From contig JAGOJO010000021.1 in assembly GCA_017995075.1 (NCBI GenBank), positions 1-37,418 of the forward strand: 37,418 nucleotides of DNA, in the 5' to 3' direction. Both the position numbers and the translations under genes were made by a program. The stretch comes from Bacteroidia bacterium. Its GTDB lineage: Bacteria > Bacteroidota > Bacteroidia > AKYH767-A > OLB10. This document shows, in pieces, positions 14,412-27,254 of this stretch. Within the stretch, counting starts at the first letter, position 1. Every line of letters begins with the position of its first letter. The notes under the pieces were generated by a model. The model was not told the origin of the DNA and made no database searches. It saw only the letters and a list, made by a program, of their open reading frames with translations.

Positions 14412-14813
14412 TTATCTCGAGCAAACAGCTGTCGCACTTTGTCCATCGGTAGAATATGCCAGATTTATTTTTTCATTTCCACCGGTACTCGAATAGGTGC
14501 CTGAACCCTGCACCACAATATTGGTCACTCCTATTTGCTGATTTGGAATCACAATTGAATTACCTGTAGATAATCCGAGAGCAACTGCGGTATTTCCGTA
14601 ATTTGAAAAGTTCGACAATCGCATGGAATCACTTTCACCGTAAGAAGTAATGTAAATTTTAAAGGTCATACTATTTGTTCCGATGGTCTCGGTACAATTC
14701 CATTCCCCTAAAAACTTCTCCCGGTCGTCGATTGTCGGATCAGCAGCGTCATCTTCAGCACAGGAAGCGAAGAGCATTAAGGCAGGAAGGCAATAAAGCA
14801 GGATTTTTTTCAT
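14412..14813 (-). CDS. Small secreted lipoprotein, possibly lipocalin-like
   Basis: This 133-residue protein begins MKKILLYCLPALMLFASCAEDD, a signal peptide with lipobox FASC (Cys18). The mature part starts with an acidic tether and has FLGEWNCTETIG followed by alternating beta-strand segments. That resembles the small beta-barrel lipoproteins common in Bacteroidota, but the assignment is weak. The frame extends to 14858, but the added residues would precede the signal peptide, so 14813 is preferred. It is transcribed divergently from thyA. No partner gene is evident. Confidence 0.75.
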   Translation of the reverse strand: MKKILLYCLPALMLFASCAEDDAADPTIDDREKFLGEWNCTETIGTNSMTFKIYITSYGESDSMRLSNFSNYGNTAVALGLSTGNSIVIPNQQIGVTNIVVQGSGTYSSTGGNEKINLAYSTDGQSATAVCSR

Positions 14814-14919
14814 GATTACAGGCGAAACTATACAGCATCTCTCCAAAAAGCAAACCAAATATTAACAAACGGCAATTTTTCTTTTAAAAAAATTTCGTCC
14901 GGCCATTCCCTTCCCTTAC

Positions 14920-14941: not shown

Positions 14942-15736
14942 ATGAAGCAATACCACGATCTACTCCGCCATGTACTCGAAAACGGTGTTAAAAAGGAAGA
15001 CCGCACCGGTACAGGTACGATCAGTGTTTTTGGCCATCAGCTACGTTGCAACCTTTCGGAAGGATTTCCCCTCCTTACCACCAAAAAACTGCATACCCGC
15101 TCCATATTCCATGAACTTCTTTGGTTCTTAAAGGGTGATACCAATATCAAATACCTGAAGGATAACGGAGTAACGATCTGGGATGAATGGGCAGATGCGA
15201 ATGGAAACCTCGGACCCGTTTACGGAAAACAATGGCGATCATGGCCGACACCTGACGGAAAACAAGTGGATCAGATCACGCAGGTAATTGACCAGATCCG
15301 GAAAAACCCTGATTCCCGCCGTTTATTGGTAAGTGCCTGGAATGTAGGAGAAATCCCTCAGATGGCGCTTCCTCCTTGCCATATCTTGTTTCAGTTTTAT
15401 GTGGCAGATGGAAAACTGAGTTGCCAGCTTTATCAACGCAGTGCTGATCTCTTTTTAGGAGTGCCATTTAATATTGCCTCTTACGCCTTGCTGACACATA
15501 TGGTAGCCCAGGTTTGCGGGTTGAAGGTCGGAGACTTCGTACATACTTTCGGAGATGTGCATATCTACAGCAACCATCTGGAACAAGTAGAACTCCAGCT
15601 GAGCCGTGAACCACGACCATTGCCTACTCTGCAGTTAAACCCATTGGTGAAAGAGCTACTCGATTTCACCTACGACGATATTGCGGTGATCAATTATGAT
15701 CCATGGCCTGCCATCAAGGCTCCGGTTGCCATCTGA
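14942..15736 (+). CDS. thyA: Thymidylate synthase
   Basis: ThyA methylates dUMP to dTMP using methylene-tetrahydrofolate and leaves dihydrofolate, which FolA (encoded at 21175) must reduce. The protein is 264 residues, the same length as in E. coli, with catalytic Cys146 in [11 protein letters not shown], the phosphate-binding RRLLVSAWN segment and [21 protein letters not shown]. All key motifs are present and the C-terminus ends in the conserved PVAI. It is a single gene. Confidence 0.97.
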
Positions 15737-15941
15737 TACACCTAAACTTCCTTTCTTAATTCTCAGATTATCGTGTAAATGTCAGGCATTTGTCATGGCC
15801 GCGACGCTCGTATGAATCAGCTTTGTTTTCCCCGATACATTCCCACGATTTATCTACTTTTCTTAATATTATTTTAACATTGGCATTAAACCTCTTACTT
15901 TCGAAGTTCTCAAACAATTACCAATCGGAAAACCTACCCCA

Positions 15942-18296
15942 ATGCAACTAAAAAGAATTCTCAAAGGTTGCGCCCTGTTGTCGATCCTCCTTGGCGGCAG
16001 TGTAAACGCGCAAAACCTTCCCTATGAGTACTCCATTTCAACTGACGGGCGTCAGATGATTTTGGGTACTAAAGCACATACCGGACTCTTTGACCAAACC
16101 CAGGTCCGACGTATTGACCTCACCTTTCCCTCAGCCAACTTCTACACCCAGCTCACGAGCAACTACGCAACAAAAACTTATATCCCGGCAACATTAACCA
16201 TCGATGGGGTTTCCTGGGACAGTGTTGGAGTGCGATTCAGAGGAAACACTTCATACCAGCAAACCGGTGCGTCGCAGAAAAAATCATTCAAAATTGAACT
16301 CGACAACTGGATCAGCGGAAGTGATTATGACGGATACAGCACCATCAAACTGAACAATGCTGCCGGTGATGCATCCATGATGCGCGAAGTATTTTATACT
16401 ACAGCTATCCGTAAACATATTCCAACCGCGAAATCGAGCTTTGTTAAATTATATCTGAATGGCTCTAACTGGGGACTCTACACCAATGTTCAGCAGATGA
16501 ACAAAGATTTTCTGGAAGAGTGGTTCTTCAGTAATGATGGCATCTGGTGGAGAGCTGATCGTCCAACAACAGGCGGAGGTCCCGGTGGCGGCGGTGGCTG
16601 GGGAGATGGAACAGCTGCATTGAATTTTTTAACATCCGACACAGCAGATTACCAGCAATACTACACGCTTAAAGAATCGACACGCACCCAACCATGGGAT
16701 TATCTGGTAACTGTTTGTGATAAATTAGAAAACACACCACTTGCTGCACTTGAAGACACACTTTTAAACTATATGGATCTCGATCGTACATTATGGTATC
16801 TCGCATCCGAGATTGCATGGACAGACGACGACAGTTATGTCTACAAAGGCAAAATGGATTACTATGTTCACCTGGAAGAAGAAACAGGACTCGTTGTTCC
16901 AATGGAATATGATGGTAACAGTGCTCTTGAAACCGGACCTGCTACTTCCTGGGGCGTATTTTACAATGCTACCAATGCCAACTATCCACTCCTGAATCGC
17001 CTGCTGAATGTTCCAACATTACGTCAGCGTTACCTCGCTCATATGCGCACAATCATTGCCGAAGAATTTGACACCAGCATCACCAACGCCACGTTTGCAT
17101 CATTCAGAGCATTGGTAGATACTGTAGTGACAAATGATCCGAAGAAGATGTATACCGTGACCCAGTACAACAATGAAGTGCAAGTATTAAAGAACTTCAT
17201 CAATACCAGAAAAAACTACATTAATTCGAATGCCGAAATTCAACAGGTAGCCCCTGTAATTACTGACGCTCCCTTCTTTGTAACAGGAGTACAATATCAG
17301 CAACCTGCAGCCGGACAAACAGTACAGGTACGTTCAACCATTTCCTCCACAGCAGGAATTGATAATGTGCAGTTATACTACTCCCCAACTATTGTAGGTA
17401 GATTTTATAAAACTGAAATGTTTGACGATGGCGCGCACGATGATGGTGGTGCCGGCGATGGAGTATTCGGAGGAACAATTCCTGCGTATGGAGCCGGAAC
17501 CTGGGTTCGTTACTATGTACAGGCTGCATCTGCAAACACAGCAAAAAGTGTGAGTTATCTTCCTGTAGGTGCTGAGCACAATGTCTTCATTTATACCGTT
17601 GCTCCACTTGCATCTGCAGACACATCGTTAGTGATTAACGAAGTAATGGCTTCCAATGTAAGTACAGCAGCAGATAACTTTGGTGAATACGATGACTGGA
17701 TTGAATTATACAACAAATCAAACTTACCAATTGATATCAGCGGATATTATCTGACTGATAATCCTATCAACCTCGATAAATTTGAAATTCCTGCGGGCAC
17801 AATTATTCAACCGAATGATTATTTGATTGTTTGGGCAGATGAAGACAGCAGTCAGGGACCGTATCATGCCAACTTCAAATTATCAGCAACCGCAGAGCTA
17901 TTGATGTTACTTGACCCATCACAAAATGTTGTTGATTCGGTTTCATGGACAGGCCAGCTTGCTGATCAGGGATACGCACGTGTTCCAAACGGAACCGGAA
18001 ACTTCGTCATACAAGGACCAACCTTCTCTGCCAATAACAATTCAGTTGGTATCAATGAAATTTCAAATGAAACTCCCGCGCAGATCTCTCTGTATCCAAA
18101 CCCGGCAACTGACCTGGTGCAGATTCAATTGCTGGATGATTCACACCGCGACCTGGAAATCTACAATGCCTTCGGACAACAAATTGAACGCAAAGGGTAC
18201 ACTTCATTCTATAGCATCAGTACATCTGATTGGGCAGCCGGAGTGTATTATGTTCGTTGTGGAGAAAGCGTAAAGAAATTGGTAATTCGCCACTAA
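15942..18296 (+). CDS. Secreted CotH-kinase / lamin-tail domain protein with T9SS tail
   Basis: The 784-residue protein has a signal peptide (about 1-23, ending VNAQ). A CotH kinase-like domain follows at about 45-425, with VGVRFRGNTSYQ, KKSFKIELD, the WTDDDSYVYKG segment and PMEYDGNSA. A beta-rich linker leads to a lamin-tail domain (about 560-690; LVINEVMASN, DDWIELYN, DISGYYLTD), and a type A T9SS sorting domain starting at ISLYPNPATD closes the protein. Bacillus CotH is a protein kinase that phosphorylates spore-coat proteins, so an extracellular protein kinase on the cell surface is possible. A Gly-rich loop (GGGPGGGGGWG, about residue 210) interrupts the domain. The VTC/DUF4956 operon nearby is a recurrent neighbour of CotH proteins, from memory. 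Confidence 0.88.
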   Translation: MQLKRILKGCALLSILLGGSVNAQNLPYEYSISTDGRQMILGTKAHTGLFDQTQVRRIDLTFPSANFYTQLTSNYATKTYIPATLTIDGVSWDSVGVRFRGNTSYQQTGASQKKSFKIELDNWISGSDYDGYSTIKLNNAAGDASMMREVFYTTAIRKHIPTAKSSFVKLYLNGSNWGLYTNVQQMNKDFLEEWFFSNDGIWWRADRPTTGGGPGGGGGWGDGTAALNFLTSDTADYQQYYTLKESTRTQPWDYLVTVCDKLENTPLAALEDTLLNYMDLDRTLWYLASEIAWTDDDSYVYKGKMDYYVHLEEETGLVVPMEYDGNSALETGPATSWGVFYNATNANYPLLNRLLNVPTLRQRYLAHMRTIIAEEFDTSITNATFASFRALVDTVVTNDPKKMYTVTQYNNEVQVLKNFINTRKNYINSNAEIQQVAPVITDAPFFVTGVQYQQPAAGQTVQVRSTISSTAGIDNVQLYYSPTIVGRFYKTEMFDDGAHDDGGAGDGVFGGTIPAYGAGTWVRYYVQAASANTAKSVSYLPVGAEHNVFIYTVAPLASADTSLVINEVMASNVSTAADNFGEYDDWIELYNKSNLPIDISGYYLTDNPINLDKFEIPAGTIIQPNDYLIVWADEDSSQGPYHANFKLSATAELLMLLDPSQNVVDSVSWTGQLADQGYARVPNGTGNFVIQGPTFSANNNSVGINEISNETPAQISLYPNPATDLVQIQLLDDSHRDLEIYNAFGQQIERKGYTSFYSISTSDWAAGVYYVRCGESVKKLVIRH

Positions 18297-18315
18297 GCCA
18301 TTACACAGAAATATT

Positions 18316-18351
18316 AAAAAAGGGTCTGATATTCCATCAGGCCCTTTTTTT
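18316..18351 (+). terminator. Terminator after the CotH gene
   Basis: A 15-bp stem (18316-18330 with 18336-18350, one G-T wobble) with a 5-base loop ends in a T-run 20 bases after the stop. The A-run on the other side makes it potentially bidirectional. The following bases up to 18593 show no further feature. Confidence 0.88.
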
Positions 18352-18593
18352 ATAAATATAGCTCCAAACAATTCAACGGATTCAAATGAAATATCCTACA
18401 AGTAAATACAATTCAGGTTATGATCACACAGTCAACATCATTCCATTAAAATCAAAGGTATATGTCTGAACAGATTTACTAATCAAAAGTGCGTACGATC
18501 TTCTCCTGTGATTGAAACAGCGGAAAGAATGGCAGAGTAGAAACAACGAAGCACTATGGTTACACGGATTCTCCGATAGAAAGAAAAACGTTA

Positions 18594-19268
18594 TCAGTCT
18601 TTGAACTTATAGATATAGCCAACTCCAAAATTCATCCTGCGCGTATCAACCAGGTCCTGATACATCACAAAAAAATCAAGGAAATGTTGCTTATTCAACT
18701 TCGACTCCATCCCCAGAACGAAGCGGCGCTGATCAAAGTCTGCCACACCTGCCCGTAACGTTTCAAACTGCTCTACCGAAAATGAAAACTCCTGCTTAAA
18801 AAACTTCTTCTTAACAGTCAATTTCTGACGCAGCACCATCTCACTCAAACTTACAATTCCCTCTGCATTACCGGGTTCATCTTCACGACCCGCGCGAAAA
18901 CGTAATGCAAAATCGTACTTTTTAATCTTCATACTTCCAATTGCATCCAGCATCAGCCGATGAGAAGATTCACGTACACCTAATCCGCGATTTGATGTAA
19001 TGTACCGGTAATGAAGAACTGTAGAGAAATTATCCGACCACTTACGCTGAATGCCCAGGTTCGGAAAATAACGCACTGCCATTAACGGATCAATATTCCA
19101 CCGCGACTCCAGCGTCAATTCCGCACGTGTTTTAGGAATAATTTTCTTCTGCAATTGCACGGAAGTCCACACCTGATTCTCCCAACGCACCTGCGCAAAA
19201 GAAGAACCCGACAACAGCAATAATAATGCTGCTACCCGCAATCGACGCAATGACAAACAGCTAAACAT
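18594..19268 (-). CDS. DUF2490 family outer-membrane protein
   Basis: The 224-residue protein begins with a signal peptide (basic start, long Leu/Ala core, cleavage near SSFAQ). Amphipathic beta-strand segments such as TRAELTLESRW, FSTVLHYRYITS, KYDFALRFRAG and MNFGVGYIYKFKD follow. This fits DUF2490, a predicted outer-membrane beta-barrel with no established function. The frame extends to 19298, but the ATG at 19268 starts the signal peptide and overlaps the DUF4956 stop as TAATG, suggesting coupled translation. It is the last gene of a four-gene operon. Confidence 0.8.
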   Translation of the reverse strand: MFSCLSLRRLRVAALLLLLSGSSFAQVRWENQVWTSVQLQKKIIPKTRAELTLESRWNIDPLMAVRYFPNLGIQRKWSDNFSTVLHYRYITSNRGLGVRESSHRLMLDAIGSMKIKKYDFALRFRAGREDEPGNAEGIVSLSEMVLRQKLTVKKKFFKQEFSFSVEQFETLRAGVADFDQRRFVLGMESKLNKQHFLDFFVMYQDLVDTRRMNFGVGYIYKFKD

Positions 19269-19846
19269 TAGTAATAGTAGATTTTCAGTTCGGCACAATC
19301 TTTCAGGAAATCAATATGCACCACTGAAACTTTATGAATTTTTAATCCGGTACGGTTCATCAGATCCTGGCGCAACTCCTCCACTTTATCTTCTCTCACC
19401 AGCTCAATTTTTTCATAGAGGATCGTTTGTGTTTTCTCATTCTTCACCAGCTTACCTCCATCCAGAATCCAGGCAACCAGCATTAGAATACCATTCAGGA
19501 TAAATGACTCAAAATAAGTTCCCTTTACTGTAGAGTTTATCAAGCCCATCGCAATAAACAACAAAAGATAGGTCATGTCCTTCTCAGAAATATTCTCTGT
19601 ACGGTAGCGAAGGAGCGAAAACACAGCAAACAAACCGAAGGCCGCACCAAATGACATCTCCACCTTACTCAACAAATACGTGATGATATAAATGATCACG
19701 TTGAACATAAAAAAGGTAAACAGATGATCCCGCTTCTTATAGTTCGGCAGATAGATCGCAAATACGATGATACTTACAGCGACCACATCGACCAGTAATC
19801 GCATGAAGAATTTTTCTCCGAGTTTATCAAATAATTCTAATTCCAT
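19268..19846 (-). CDS. DUF4956 integral membrane protein
   Basis: The 192-residue protein has about five hydrophobic segments (roughly 16-33, 42-60, 66-81, 91-107, 113-128). The DUF4956 signature SFGAAFGLFAVFSLLRYRTE with ISEKDMTYL follows the second segment. The soluble C-terminal domain of about 65 residues (IELVREDKVEELRQDL, then HIDFLKDCAELKIYYY) has a ferredoxin-like alternation of strands and helices. The function is unknown. DUF4956 proteins, as I recall, are usually encoded beside VTC-domain polyphosphate polymerases, as here: its ATG directly abuts the stop of the VTC gene. Confidence 0.88.
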   Translation of the reverse strand: MELELFDKLGEKFFMRLLVDVVAVSIIVFAIYLPNYKKRDHLFTFFMFNVIIYIITYLLSKVEMSFGAAFGLFAVFSLLRYRTENISEKDMTYLLLFIAMGLINSTVKGTYFESFILNGILMLVAWILDGGKLVKNEKTQTILYEKIELVREDKVEELRQDLMNRTGLKIHKVSVVHIDFLKDCAELKIYYY

Positions 19847-20590
19847 TTAGGCTCTTGATTGTATTTGGTGAATGGTGAGTTGTTGACGTTTAAATAAATT
19901 ATGTTTTAATTCCGGACGCAGCAAACTGAGTCCGAGGCAATACTTTGAAATTGAAAATGGAGCAACATGATGACTTTTGATTATCTTAATAAATGCCGAT
20001 GGTGCTTTACTTCCCTGTTTCACTTCCGCCACAATCAGATTACCGAATGATTTGGAAGTATGTTCATTCGCGAATGTCAGATTCAGATCGAGAGTCATAC
20101 GTTCAGGTGGGTCAAGACTAACAAGGGTAATCCGCTGAAAGGTTATTCGGGTAGCAAACTTCCATTCCTGCTCCTGCTGACCGGTCACCTCACGAAAAAA
20201 CTGCAATTGTTCTGCTGTAAGAGCCTCACCGAATGCTGTTGTTTTCTTTCTGGACTTTACCGTACGACCTGTATTGGTCTTCCGTTTCATCTCCATATAA
20301 TTAATTGACGAACTGCCATACCGGCGAAGACGCAGCTTATATCTGCTCCCTCTCTGATTATGATGCGCCAGGTACATACCAAACTGAGGATCGTCAAAAT
20401 ACAACGTGTCATATGGATGCTCCCGGCAATCGTCGATGGTAAGAATACGATAGGACTGTTGAAGTTCCGGCAACAACACAGGCAACAGCGACTGATGGAA
20501 AACGAACTTCGTATCGATCCGGTTGGTTAATGCCACCGTATCCATCTCCGCCAATCCAATCGGACCAAAACCTTCCAGCAAGTGTTGCAT
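19847..20590 (-). CDS. VTC-domain polyphosphate polymerase-like protein
   Basis: The 247-residue protein fits the VTC domain, which in yeast Vtc4 makes polyphosphate from ATP inside a tunnel lined with basic residues. The core pattern is complete: NRIDTKF (Arg24, Lys28), YKLRLRRY (Lys85, Arg87, Arg89), MEMKRKT (Glu100, Lys102, Lys104), RITFQR (Arg148, Arg153), ERMTLD (Arg164), AEVK (Glu189, Lys191) and SKYCLG (Lys216). It has no signal peptide or membrane helix, so it is cytoplasmic, presumably attached to the adjacent DUF4956 protein. Catalysis is inferred. Other triphosphate-tunnel functions are possible. Confidence 0.87.
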   Translation of the reverse strand: MQHLLEGFGPIGLAEMDTVALTNRIDTKFVFHQSLLPVLLPELQQSYRILTIDDCREHPYDTLYFDDPQFGMYLAHHNQRGSRYKLRLRRYGSSSINYMEMKRKTNTGRTVKSRKKTTAFGEALTAEQLQFFREVTGQQEQEWKFATRITFQRITLVSLDPPERMTLDLNLTFANEHTSKSFGNLIVAEVKQGSKAPSAFIKIIKSHHVAPFSISKYCLGLSLLRPELKHNLFKRQQLTIHQIQSRA

Positions 20591-20597
20591 ACCCTGC

Positions 20598-20996
20598 TTA
20601 GTTCAGTTTTATAATGGTAATATCGTCCAGGCTCACTTCCGATTTATTTTTGGAAATTTTCGCATCAAGAATAATCGGAATCTTTTCGCCAAAAGTGGTC
20701 AGATTGGTATCTTCTGAATAAACAAACACACGGTAATTCCCCTTATTCAGAAACTGGAACTTATAACTTCCATCGAAGCTGGTACGGGTACGATCATCAA
20801 ACGTATCATCCTCATCGCCGTAAATAATATAAATATCCTCATCCGATGCCTCCCGTTCAGTATAAAGAATTGGGAACGCTGTATACTCACGCACCCTCAC
20901 CTTTCCTTTGATCACAGAGTTCCCGCCTTCCCCTTCCTCCTTTTCACAAGAAGTAAAAGCCAGAACAGCCAGAAGCATTACACATAGTTTTTTCAT
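20598..20996 (-). CDS. Small lipoprotein leading the VTC operon
   Basis: This protein of about 132 residues starts MKKLCVMLLAVLAFTSCEKEE, with lipobox FTSC. The mature part has a VIKGKVRVREY strand, a stretch of acidic residues (GDEDDTFDD) and FDGSYKFQFLNKGNYRVFVYSED. That is typical of the carboxypeptidase-regulatory or prealbumin-like beta-sandwich found in envelope lipoproteins. Another ATG three codons upstream (21005) is equally possible. It ends 7 bases before the VTC gene and is almost certainly cotranscribed. The acidic patch might bind metal ions, but this is a guess. Confidence 0.8.
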   Translation of the reverse strand: MKKLCVMLLAVLAFTSCEKEEGEGGNSVIKGKVRVREYTAFPILYTEREASDEDIYIIYGDEDDTFDDRTRTSFDGSYKFQFLNKGNYRVFVYSEDTNLTTFGEKIPIILDAKISKNKSEVSLDDITIIKLN

Positions 20997-21010
20997 TGTC
21001 TGCATTTTTC

Positions 21011-21045
21011 AAGGATACGATTTTACAAAAAATTAACGTATCCTT
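21011..21045. promoter_or_regulatory. 9-bp perfect inverted repeat upstream of the VTC operon
   Basis: AAGGATACG (21011-21019) and CGTATCCTT (21037-21045) are perfect reverse complements separated by 17 AT-rich bases. The repeat is 6 to 15 bases before the candidate start codons of the lipoprotein gene. It could be an operator for a dimeric regulator or a hairpin in the 5' leader. No T-run follows, so it is not a classic terminator. Confidence 0.5.
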
Positions 21046-21174
21046 TATAATAACCTAACGCAAAAGAAAGGTTTTCCGGGGTACGGGGAAAGTCCAAAGA
21101 CCTCGTAATACGTAGATTTCACCTCGGTTGACAATTAAAATACATAATTTCACACACTGAATCCTGAATATACC

Positions 21175-21663
21175 ATGGTGCTCTCTCTCATTGCGGCTGT
21201 CGATAAAAAACTTGGAATTGGCAAGGACAACAAACTATTATGGCATCTGCCGGCTGACTTACAGTACTTTAAACGAGTCACTTCCGGAAGCACTGTCATC
21301 ATGGGCCGAAAAACCTATGAGTCTATCGGACGCGCCTTGCCAAACCGAAGAAACATAGTACTTACACGCACGGAAGATTACAATGCACCCGGCTGTGAAG
21401 TAATGGAAGAGCTTTTTGATGCCATTAAATCCTGCTCCAAAGAAGGCGAAGTGTTTATCATCGGAGGTGCAGAAATTTATCGCCAGGCCATTCAGGTAGC
21501 CGATAAAATTTATCTCACAAGGGTTGATGTAGAAACTGATGCCGATACTTTTTTCCCGGATTTCAGCTTGAGTGCCTGGAAACTCATCCATCTGCTAAAG
21601 CACAAAGCCGACGAGAAGAACAAATACGACTATTCCTTCTCTATTTACCAGCGGGTAGCTTAA
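21175..21663 (+). CDS. folA: Dihydrofolate reductase
   Basis: FolA reduces dihydrofolate to tetrahydrofolate with NADPH, completing the cycle fed by ThyA at 14942. The 162-residue protein begins LSLIAAVDKKLGIGKDNKL and carries the active-site Asp28 in LPADLQYFK. It also has the NADPH-binding VIMGRKTYESIGRALPNRRNIVLTR segment and EVFIIGGAEIY. Length and motif order are normal. Thymidylate synthase and FolA are often adjacent in other bacteria. Here the lipoprotein/CotH/VTC block lies between them, which may be an insertion or a rearrangement. Confidence 0.96.
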   Translation: MVLSLIAAVDKKLGIGKDNKLLWHLPADLQYFKRVTSGSTVIMGRKTYESIGRALPNRRNIVLTRTEDYNAPGCEVMEELFDAIKSCSKEGEVFIIGGAEIYRQAIQVADKIYLTRVDVETDADTFFPDFSLSAWKLIHLLKHKADEKNKYDYSFSIYQRVA

Positions 21664-26768: not shown

Positions 26769-27254
26769 ATGGCAACTAAAAAAGCAAAACCTGCTAAGAA
26801 GGCTACTAAGAAAGCCGCTCCAAAGAAAGCCGCTAAAAAAGCTGCTCCAAAGAAAGCCGCTAAGAAAGCTGCTCCAAAGAAAGCCGCTAAGAAAGCTGCT
26901 CCTAAAAAAGCTGCTAAGAAAGCTGCTCCTAAAAAAGCTGCTAAGAAAGCTGCTCCTAAAAAAGCTGCTAAAGCCGCAAAAGCACCTAAAGCAAAAACAA
27001 AGCGTACACCTAACGCTGCTTTCATGAAAGCAATGACTCCAAGCGCTACGCTTGCTGCAGTTATTGGTAACGGTGCAGTACCACGTACTGAAGTAGTAAA
27101 GAAAATCTGGGGTTACATTAAAAAGAATGCCCTCCAGGACAAGAAAAACAAGCGCATGATCAATGCTGACGACAAGTTGAAAGCAGTTTTCGGCGGAAAA
27201 AGTCAGGTTTCAATGTTTGAAATGACTAAGCTTGTTAACAAGCACCTGTCTTAA
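26769..27254 (+). CDS. SWIB/MDM2-domain protein with histone-H1-like Lys/Ala repeats
   Basis: The 161-residue protein has two parts. Residues 1-77 are almost only Lys, Ala and Pro, with six tandem AAPKKAAKK units at 16-69, like the C-terminal tail of histone H1. Residues 78-161 form a SWIB/MDM2 fold (PSATLAAVIGNGAVPRTEVVKKIWGYIKKN, ending FEMTKLVNKHLS). SWIB domains occur in eukaryotic chromatin remodellers and in a few bacterial groups such as Chlamydiae. A nucleoid-binding, DNA-compacting role is likely but inferred. The gene stands alone between two strong terminators. Confidence 0.93.
   Translation: MATKKAKPAKKATKKAAPKKAAKKAAPKKAAKKAAPKKAAKKAAPKKAAKKAAPKKAAKKAAPKKAAKAAKAPKAKTKRTPNAAFMKAMTPSATLAAVIGNGAVPRTEVVKKIWGYIKKNALQDKKNKRMINADDKLKAVFGGKSQVSMFEMTKLVNKHLS
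26814..26975 (+). repeat. Six 27-nt tandem repeats coding AAPKKAAKK
   Basis: The six units fall into two DNA types. Units 1-3 use CCAAAGAAAGCC and units 4-6 use CCTAAAAAAGCT. Neighbouring units are nearly identical within each block, so the array probably grew by two separate rounds of local duplication. Confidence 0.85.

Follow-up and report, generated by a model that had tools for sequence, protein, structure and literature searches.

Polyphosphate synthesis by the yeast VTC complex (Vtc4/Vtc3/Vtc1; PMC9911596) is among the closest described counterparts of the gene set we examine here. That set is an operon encoding a lipoprotein, a VTC-domain protein, a DUF4956 membrane protein and a DUF2490 outer-membrane protein, faced by a secreted CotH-family protein. 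It lies in a stretch of 37,418 nucleotides from a Bacteroidia bacterium (contig JAGOJO010000021.1 of assembly GCA_017995075.1), which we call the window. The yeast complex and the Bacteroidota set share the tunnel polymerase fold, the main catalytic residues, and the combination of a cytoplasmic enzyme with a membrane component. Unlike in yeast, the enzyme and the membrane component of the Bacteroidota set are two distinct proteins, the SPX domain is absent, a profile and a moderate-confidence model of DUF4956 showed no resemblance to Vtc1, and the set is directed at a Gram-negative envelope, with outer-membrane parts.

CotH, VTC and DUF4956 families also stand side by side in Gram-positive bacteria, as the CotH-PPP-DUF4956 accessory genes of Pel polysaccharide loci (PMC7112168, PMC12345266) and in NELoc-2 of Clostridium perfringens (PMC2879425). 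Mild Pel phenotypes have been reported for the trio genes, and the trio was not found outside Pel loci (PMC12345266). The Bacteroidota data contradict this last point. There are no Pel genes among the recurrent neighbour clusters of the Bacteroidota loci, although we did not search for Pel families singly. In contrast to the Gram-positive trio, the Bacteroidota set adds DUF2490, the lipoprotein and a YD-repeat protein, or else HlyD-type and outer-membrane-efflux (OEP) proteins. Within Bacteroidota, the adjoining DUF4956 and DUF2490 genes BT3498-99 of B. thetaiotaomicron appear as one line of an expression table with no function proposed (PMC10434189). So the trio itself is already published, beside Pel genes, for Gram-positive bacteria. 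In the literature that we found, in a search that covered subscription journals thinly, there is no account of the Bacteroidota operon, of its lipoprotein, YD-repeat and outer-membrane members or of the link to HlyD and TolC-like genes.

We found that the linkage of this gene set is far above chance and conserved across Bacteroidota. The best single explanation, to which we give a probability of roughly 45%, is that polyphosphate or a similar polymer is synthesized in the cytoplasm and exported to the surface. If this is true, polyphosphate may be made and displayed on the Bacteroidota surface by a hitherto undescribed route. The route by which polyphosphate leaves bacterial cells and the energy source of extracellular kinases are open questions, and a fixed set with a Vtc4-like enzyme, inner- and outer-membrane parts and a secreted CotH makes both testable in culturable Cytophagales.

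Linkage of the gene set across Bacteroidota

We counted the families in an order-level sample of 42 genomes and assessed association with Fisher tests. VTC and DUF4956 occur in the identical 25 genomes (p 4e-12) and adjoin in all of them, bar one contig break. CotH is present in 25 of 25 genomes with VTC and in 5 of the 17 others (p 6e-7). DUF2490 is present in 24 of the 25 (p 3e-5), and in 23 of those 24 it is the next gene by coordinates, counting in one contig break. PPK1, which served as a control, was not associated with VTC (p 0.5). Because PPK1 is independent of VTC and the window's genome has it, VTC does not simply serve as the storage polymerase of the cell, and we ruled out VTC as a replacement for PPK1 on the same grounds.

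We also searched separately with a DUF4956 profile and obtained 80 named loci, a few of them in genomes of the order-level sample; they come from Cytophagales, Bacteroidales, Chitinophagales, Flavobacteriales and other groups. VTC adjoins DUF4956 at 75 of the 77 scannable loci, and DUF2490 adjoins the pair, directly downstream of DUF4956, at 69 of 79. The lipoprotein family is found at 42 of 70 loci and a secreted YD-repeat gene at 47 of 70. For CotH we counted neighbours with an iterated profile, since a narrower first profile missed locus L130. There is a CotH gene within 5 kb upstream on the same strand at 33 of 56 loci, 30 of them directly adjoining; the chance expectation by our own estimate is about 0.4% (about 5 CotH genes per 3.3 Mb genome). 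The usual order of six genes, found at many loci, is CotH-lipoprotein-YD-VTC-DUF4956-DUF2490. Where the order is permuted DUF2490 still adjoins, lying upstream of VTC in genomes G054, G075 and G172.

Phylum-wide we used 148 genomes, which are not mutually independent and in which VTC is spread over 16 families. All 29 genomes with VTC also carry DUF4956 and CotH (p=2e-14 for VTC/CotH), and the DUF4956/CotH counts were 42-3-18-85 (p 5e-19). The neighbour and co-occurrence counts in the three samples rule out a mere chance cluster, and they bear out the recurrence of the VTC/DUF4956/CotH trio, which had been stated beforehand as known from family work. The original prediction also held that DUF2490 and the lipoprotein extend the trio to the outer membrane and named co-occurrence in advance as the test of this; the counts of 69 of 79 and 42 of 70 uphold it.

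A candidate polyphosphate polymerase

The VTC domain scored 98.5 bits against a cut-off of 23, and an AlphaFold2 model of the protein had a predicted local distance difference test score (pLDDT) of 94.6. The best solved match to the model is yeast Vtc4 (3g3r; Z 18.7, 2.6 A, 211 residues), with which Foldseek agrees. Hydrolytic tunnel enzymes, the next chains outside VTC, reach Z 14.4 or less. By sequence, the family profile retrieves Vtc4 with E 0.0017. In the profile alignment K28, R87, R89, E100, K102, K112, R153, R164 and K216 correspond to Vtc4 K200, R264, R266, E279, K281, K294, R361, R373 and K458. These residues are invariant over 62 sequences except R164 (>90%), and invariant in a set of 24 relatives, so the tunnel is indeed intact, as had been read from the window.

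Instead of the basic exit-path residues of Vtc4, hydrolytic tunnel enzymes have an acidic patch (Glu2, Glu4, Glu90 and Glu171 in AtTTM3; PMC4641920). Glu2 and Glu4 correspond by strand register to R24 and D26 of the VTC protein and Glu171 most likely to K191, with Glu90 unmapped. At the three positions that we checked, R24 and K191 are basic and D26 is acidic, and the exit path therefore appears mostly, not wholly, polymerase-like. The fold of the model and the aligned residues support polymerase-type chemistry for this putative enzyme.

DUF4956 and its possible exits

The DUF4956 model (pLDDT 78) has five predicted helices followed by a cytoplasmic ACT/ferredoxin-like domain. The protein has a near-invariant loop, R80-x-R82-T-E84....K89, and the positive-inside rule puts this basic loop on the presumed cytoplasmic side. 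Neither the profile nor the moderate-confidence model matched any Vtc chain when we looked for a Vtc1-type membrane domain.

In divergent DUF4956 lineages without DUF2490 (L153-L158, L162), HlyD-type and TolC-like outer-membrane-efflux genes directly follow DUF4956. Locus L168 has the single operon CotH-DUF4956-HlyD-OEP-VTC, and L165, L177, L179, L180 and L183 have the gene order VTC-DUF4956-HlyD. Several other loci have a single-anchor protein of about 356 aa, weakly similar to HlyD, beside VTC. In these same two scans a strong HlyD neighbour and DUF2490 were mutually exclusive around DUF4956, and there was no HlyD in the operon at any DUF2490 locus. Because it is joined to HlyD and TolC-like genes in these lineages, DUF4956 looks like one inner-membrane exporter with interchangeable exits (DUF2490 or HlyD/TolC-like), which is independent support for export across the envelope.

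We also observed that L153-L158 and L162 appear to encode a tripartite exporter without VTC and without an ATP-binding cassette (ABC) or resistance-nodulation-division (RND) pump. At L159:4263-7371, DUF4956 without VTC is followed by a 341-aa gene without an assigned family and a purple-acid-phosphatase-like protein.

Lipoprotein, YD-repeat and DUF2490 proteins

The lipoprotein is a new family, and its sub-threshold beta-sandwich profile matches, the only ones we obtained, suggest a small beta-sandwich-like domain. All 70 family members have the lipobox Cys and the motif C-x-[K/N]-x-x-G-x-G-G at the lipid anchor. K occupies +3 in 67 of the 70, and acidic residues at +4/+5 are less frequent. 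The surface-export signal of Bacteroidetes lipoproteins is C-X-K-(D/E)2 (PMC5080379), and the window's lipoprotein fits it with C-E-K-E-E after the lipobox, so it is probably surface exposed. The DUF2490 protein is basic, with a pI of about 10. The YD-repeat gene, which is small and lies between the lipoprotein and VTC at most loci, is absent from the window and has been lost by the window's genus.

CotH proteins

Bacillus CotH, a spore-coat kinase (5jd9; PMC7821199), belongs to the same fold family as the window's CotH. When we aligned 67 CotH domains, the Asp matching 5jd9 residue 224 was the same in all of them and another Asp in almost all; the window copy keeps both (D297, D324). Unlike Bacillus CotH, it is secreted by the type IX secretion system (T9SS) and has a lamin-tail domain (4e-20) followed by a T9SS sorting tail (4e-10). 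It also differs from it, together with its orthologues, at three of the family's most conserved positions, with Q184 for Glu, D306 for Asn and Y323 for Trp. These changes suggest that the window CotH may have lost or altered its kinase activity.

The orthologues in the same-genus loci L047, L048 and L053 lie in the same convergent position. A terminator-like palindrome stands just past the CotH stop, and we therefore treat CotH as a separate transcription unit. With its diverged active site and separate convergent unit, its kinase role is doubtful and it is poor evidence of a kinase step here. What had been claimed of this gene, a convergent CotH-kinase/lamin-tail T9SS protein, stands for its presence, domains and orientation and fails for the kinase role, as the three positions are changed and the gene is not co-transcribed with the operon.

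We considered whether the facing CotH is part of the operon and ruled this out, because its gene converges on the operon, because it falls in a diverged CotH clade, and because the operonic CotH of relatives lies upstream of the lipoprotein. That usual slot is empty in the window. Where the slot has no CotH, it may hold an unrelated gene or another surface protein, T9SS-tailed or carbohydrate-binding. Cthe_2159-type carbohydrate-binding beta-helix proteins lie beside the CotH-less operon at L102, L120, L126 and L134 (checked with Pfam at L134 alone). The window's genome has a second CotH (G000:C135:23793-24881; L149:619-2682) of a type of about 690 aa shared with family members that lack VTC. 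This copy keeps the E and the W-D, and has S in place of N.

Proposed synthesis and export, and the alternatives

In our preferred reading, the VTC protein would sit on the cytoplasmic face of the inner membrane and polymerise phosphate from ATP. DUF4956 would be the inner-membrane passage, taking the chain at its conserved basic loop, and the two together would be a split version of yeast VTC, whose polymerase and membrane channel form one complex. The DUF2490 barrel and the lipoprotein, linked to the pair and the latter with a lipobox and a match to the export signal, would help the polymer over the outer membrane; in other lineages the linked HlyD and TolC-like proteins would take this exit role. 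CotH-family and related proteins that the T9SS has brought to the surface may bind the polymer or take phosphoryl groups from it. A polymer acting as phosphoryl donor would solve the absence of ATP outside the cell, and the perfect genome-level co-occurrence is what suggests that a secreted CotH might use VTC-made polyphosphate in this way. The fullest version is a phylum-wide machine in which polyphosphate made in the cytoplasm leaves across both membranes, by way of DUF4956 and a DUF2490/lipoprotein or HlyD/TolC-type exit, and acts as phosphoryl donor for secreted CotH-family kinases. We judge this version decidedly unlikely.

Several observations weigh against synthesis and export. The VTC protein is a single domain without an SPX or membrane domain, and one position of the hydrolase-type patch, D26 (T198 in Vtc4), is still acidic in it. 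Our DUF4956 model had no solved-structure match above noise in the Protein Data Bank (PDB), the model being of moderate confidence. DUF2490 is present in some genomes without VTC. In L153-L158, which are one family, DUF4956 occurs with HlyD-OEP and without VTC; therefore the cargo of DUF4956 does not have to come from VTC, and it may differ there. Deletion of the VTC gene in Streptococcus intermedius gave no aggregation phenotype (PMC12345266).

The alternative that survives best, although we consider it doubtful, is that the set acts on an exopolysaccharide or a layer of surface proteins, modulating or decorating it, and displays no polymer. VTC would hydrolyse or sense triphosphate or nucleotide, DUF4956 would be an MgtC/ACT-like regulator and CotH would phosphorylate surface proteins. 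This would fit the trio's position beside Pel polysaccharide genes in streptococci, clostridia and bifidobacteria (PMC7112168), and Pel level and aggregation were altered by deleting DUF4956 or CotH, not VTC (PMC12345266). However, the recurrent neighbours of the Bacteroidota loci include no glycosyltransferase or Pel-like gene, and the HlyD and TolC-like partners indicate export. For a regulatory DUF4956, a homologue has been read as MgtC plus ACT (PMC12345266), and our model has an ACT-like C-terminal domain; against it, an hhalign comparison with MgtC proteins from this order found no match, with both alignments shallow. D26 favours hydrolysis or sensing, whereas the VTC fold and the basic residues favour a polymerase.

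We think it unlikely that the set sends some other phosphate-rich or anionic product across the envelope, for instance a polymer derived from nucleotides or a short tri- or tetraphosphate, with VTC making the product and DUF4956 carrying it. The gene linkage suits this as well as it suits polyphosphate, the tunnel fold takes many triphosphate substrates (PMC4641920), and the loci with DUF4956 and HlyD/OEP and no VTC would allow a variable cargo. However, the closest solved fold is specifically a polyphosphate polymerase, and the equivalent of its catalytic Lys458 is kept. We regard as highly improbable a module for the uptake and homeostasis of phosphate or divalent cations, with an anion imported by DUF2490 and the lipoprotein, DUF4956 working as a transporter and VTC acting as a cytoplasmic store or sensor of phosphate. 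It would fit the basic barrel and the listing of BT3498-99 among iron-responsive genes (PMC10434189), but the partners are of export type (HlyD, OEP, T9SS cargo) and not TonB-dependent or ABC import genes.

Layout of the locus and neighbouring genes

By reading of the open reading frames (ORFs), the four operon genes are close-packed on the minus strand over 18594-21005 (Table 1). The gaps between them of 7, 0 and -1 bases were exact on rereading the coordinates. The ORFs and strands of all five genes are as first described, with the domains confirmed by Pfam. No NCBIfam model matches any of the four operon proteins. The palindrome between the convergent genes has one internal mismatch and so was missed by the palindrome scan.

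Table 1. Features of the operon and the facing CotH gene in the window.
Feature	Position	Strand	Evidence
Lipoprotein, 135 aa, first operon gene	20598..21005	-	lipobox Cys residue 20
VTC-domain protein, 247 aa, predicted cytoplasmic triphosphate-tunnel fold, candidate polyphosphate polymerase	19847..20590	-	Pfam PF09359 E 6e-28
DUF4956 predicted inner-membrane protein, 192 aa	19268..19846	-	Pfam PF16316 E 5e-51
DUF2490 outer-membrane protein, 224 aa, start ATG 19268	18594..19268	-	Pfam PF10677 E 2e-16
CotH/lamin-tail/T9SS-tail secreted protein, 784 aa, convergent with operon	15942..18296	+	PF08757 E 1e-44
Terminator-like palindrome AAAAAAGGGTCTGATATTCCATCAGGCCCTTTTTTT between convergent genes	18317..18352	.	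direct reading of letters

The genes thyA and folA are commonly neighbours. In the window the CotH/VTC island (14942-21663) is inserted between them, and likewise in the same-genus loci L047 and L048. In one clade (L059, L071, L077, L080, L082, L083, L089, L091, L099, L117), ispF and porV-/porU-like T9SS genes follow the operon on the opposite strand. Another small lipoprotein (14412-14858, minus strand) lies beside thyA in the window and is conserved in the genus. Further along, at 26769-27254, there is a small protein with a Lys/Ala-repeat N-terminus (KKAAPKKAA), whose composition is histone-H1-like.

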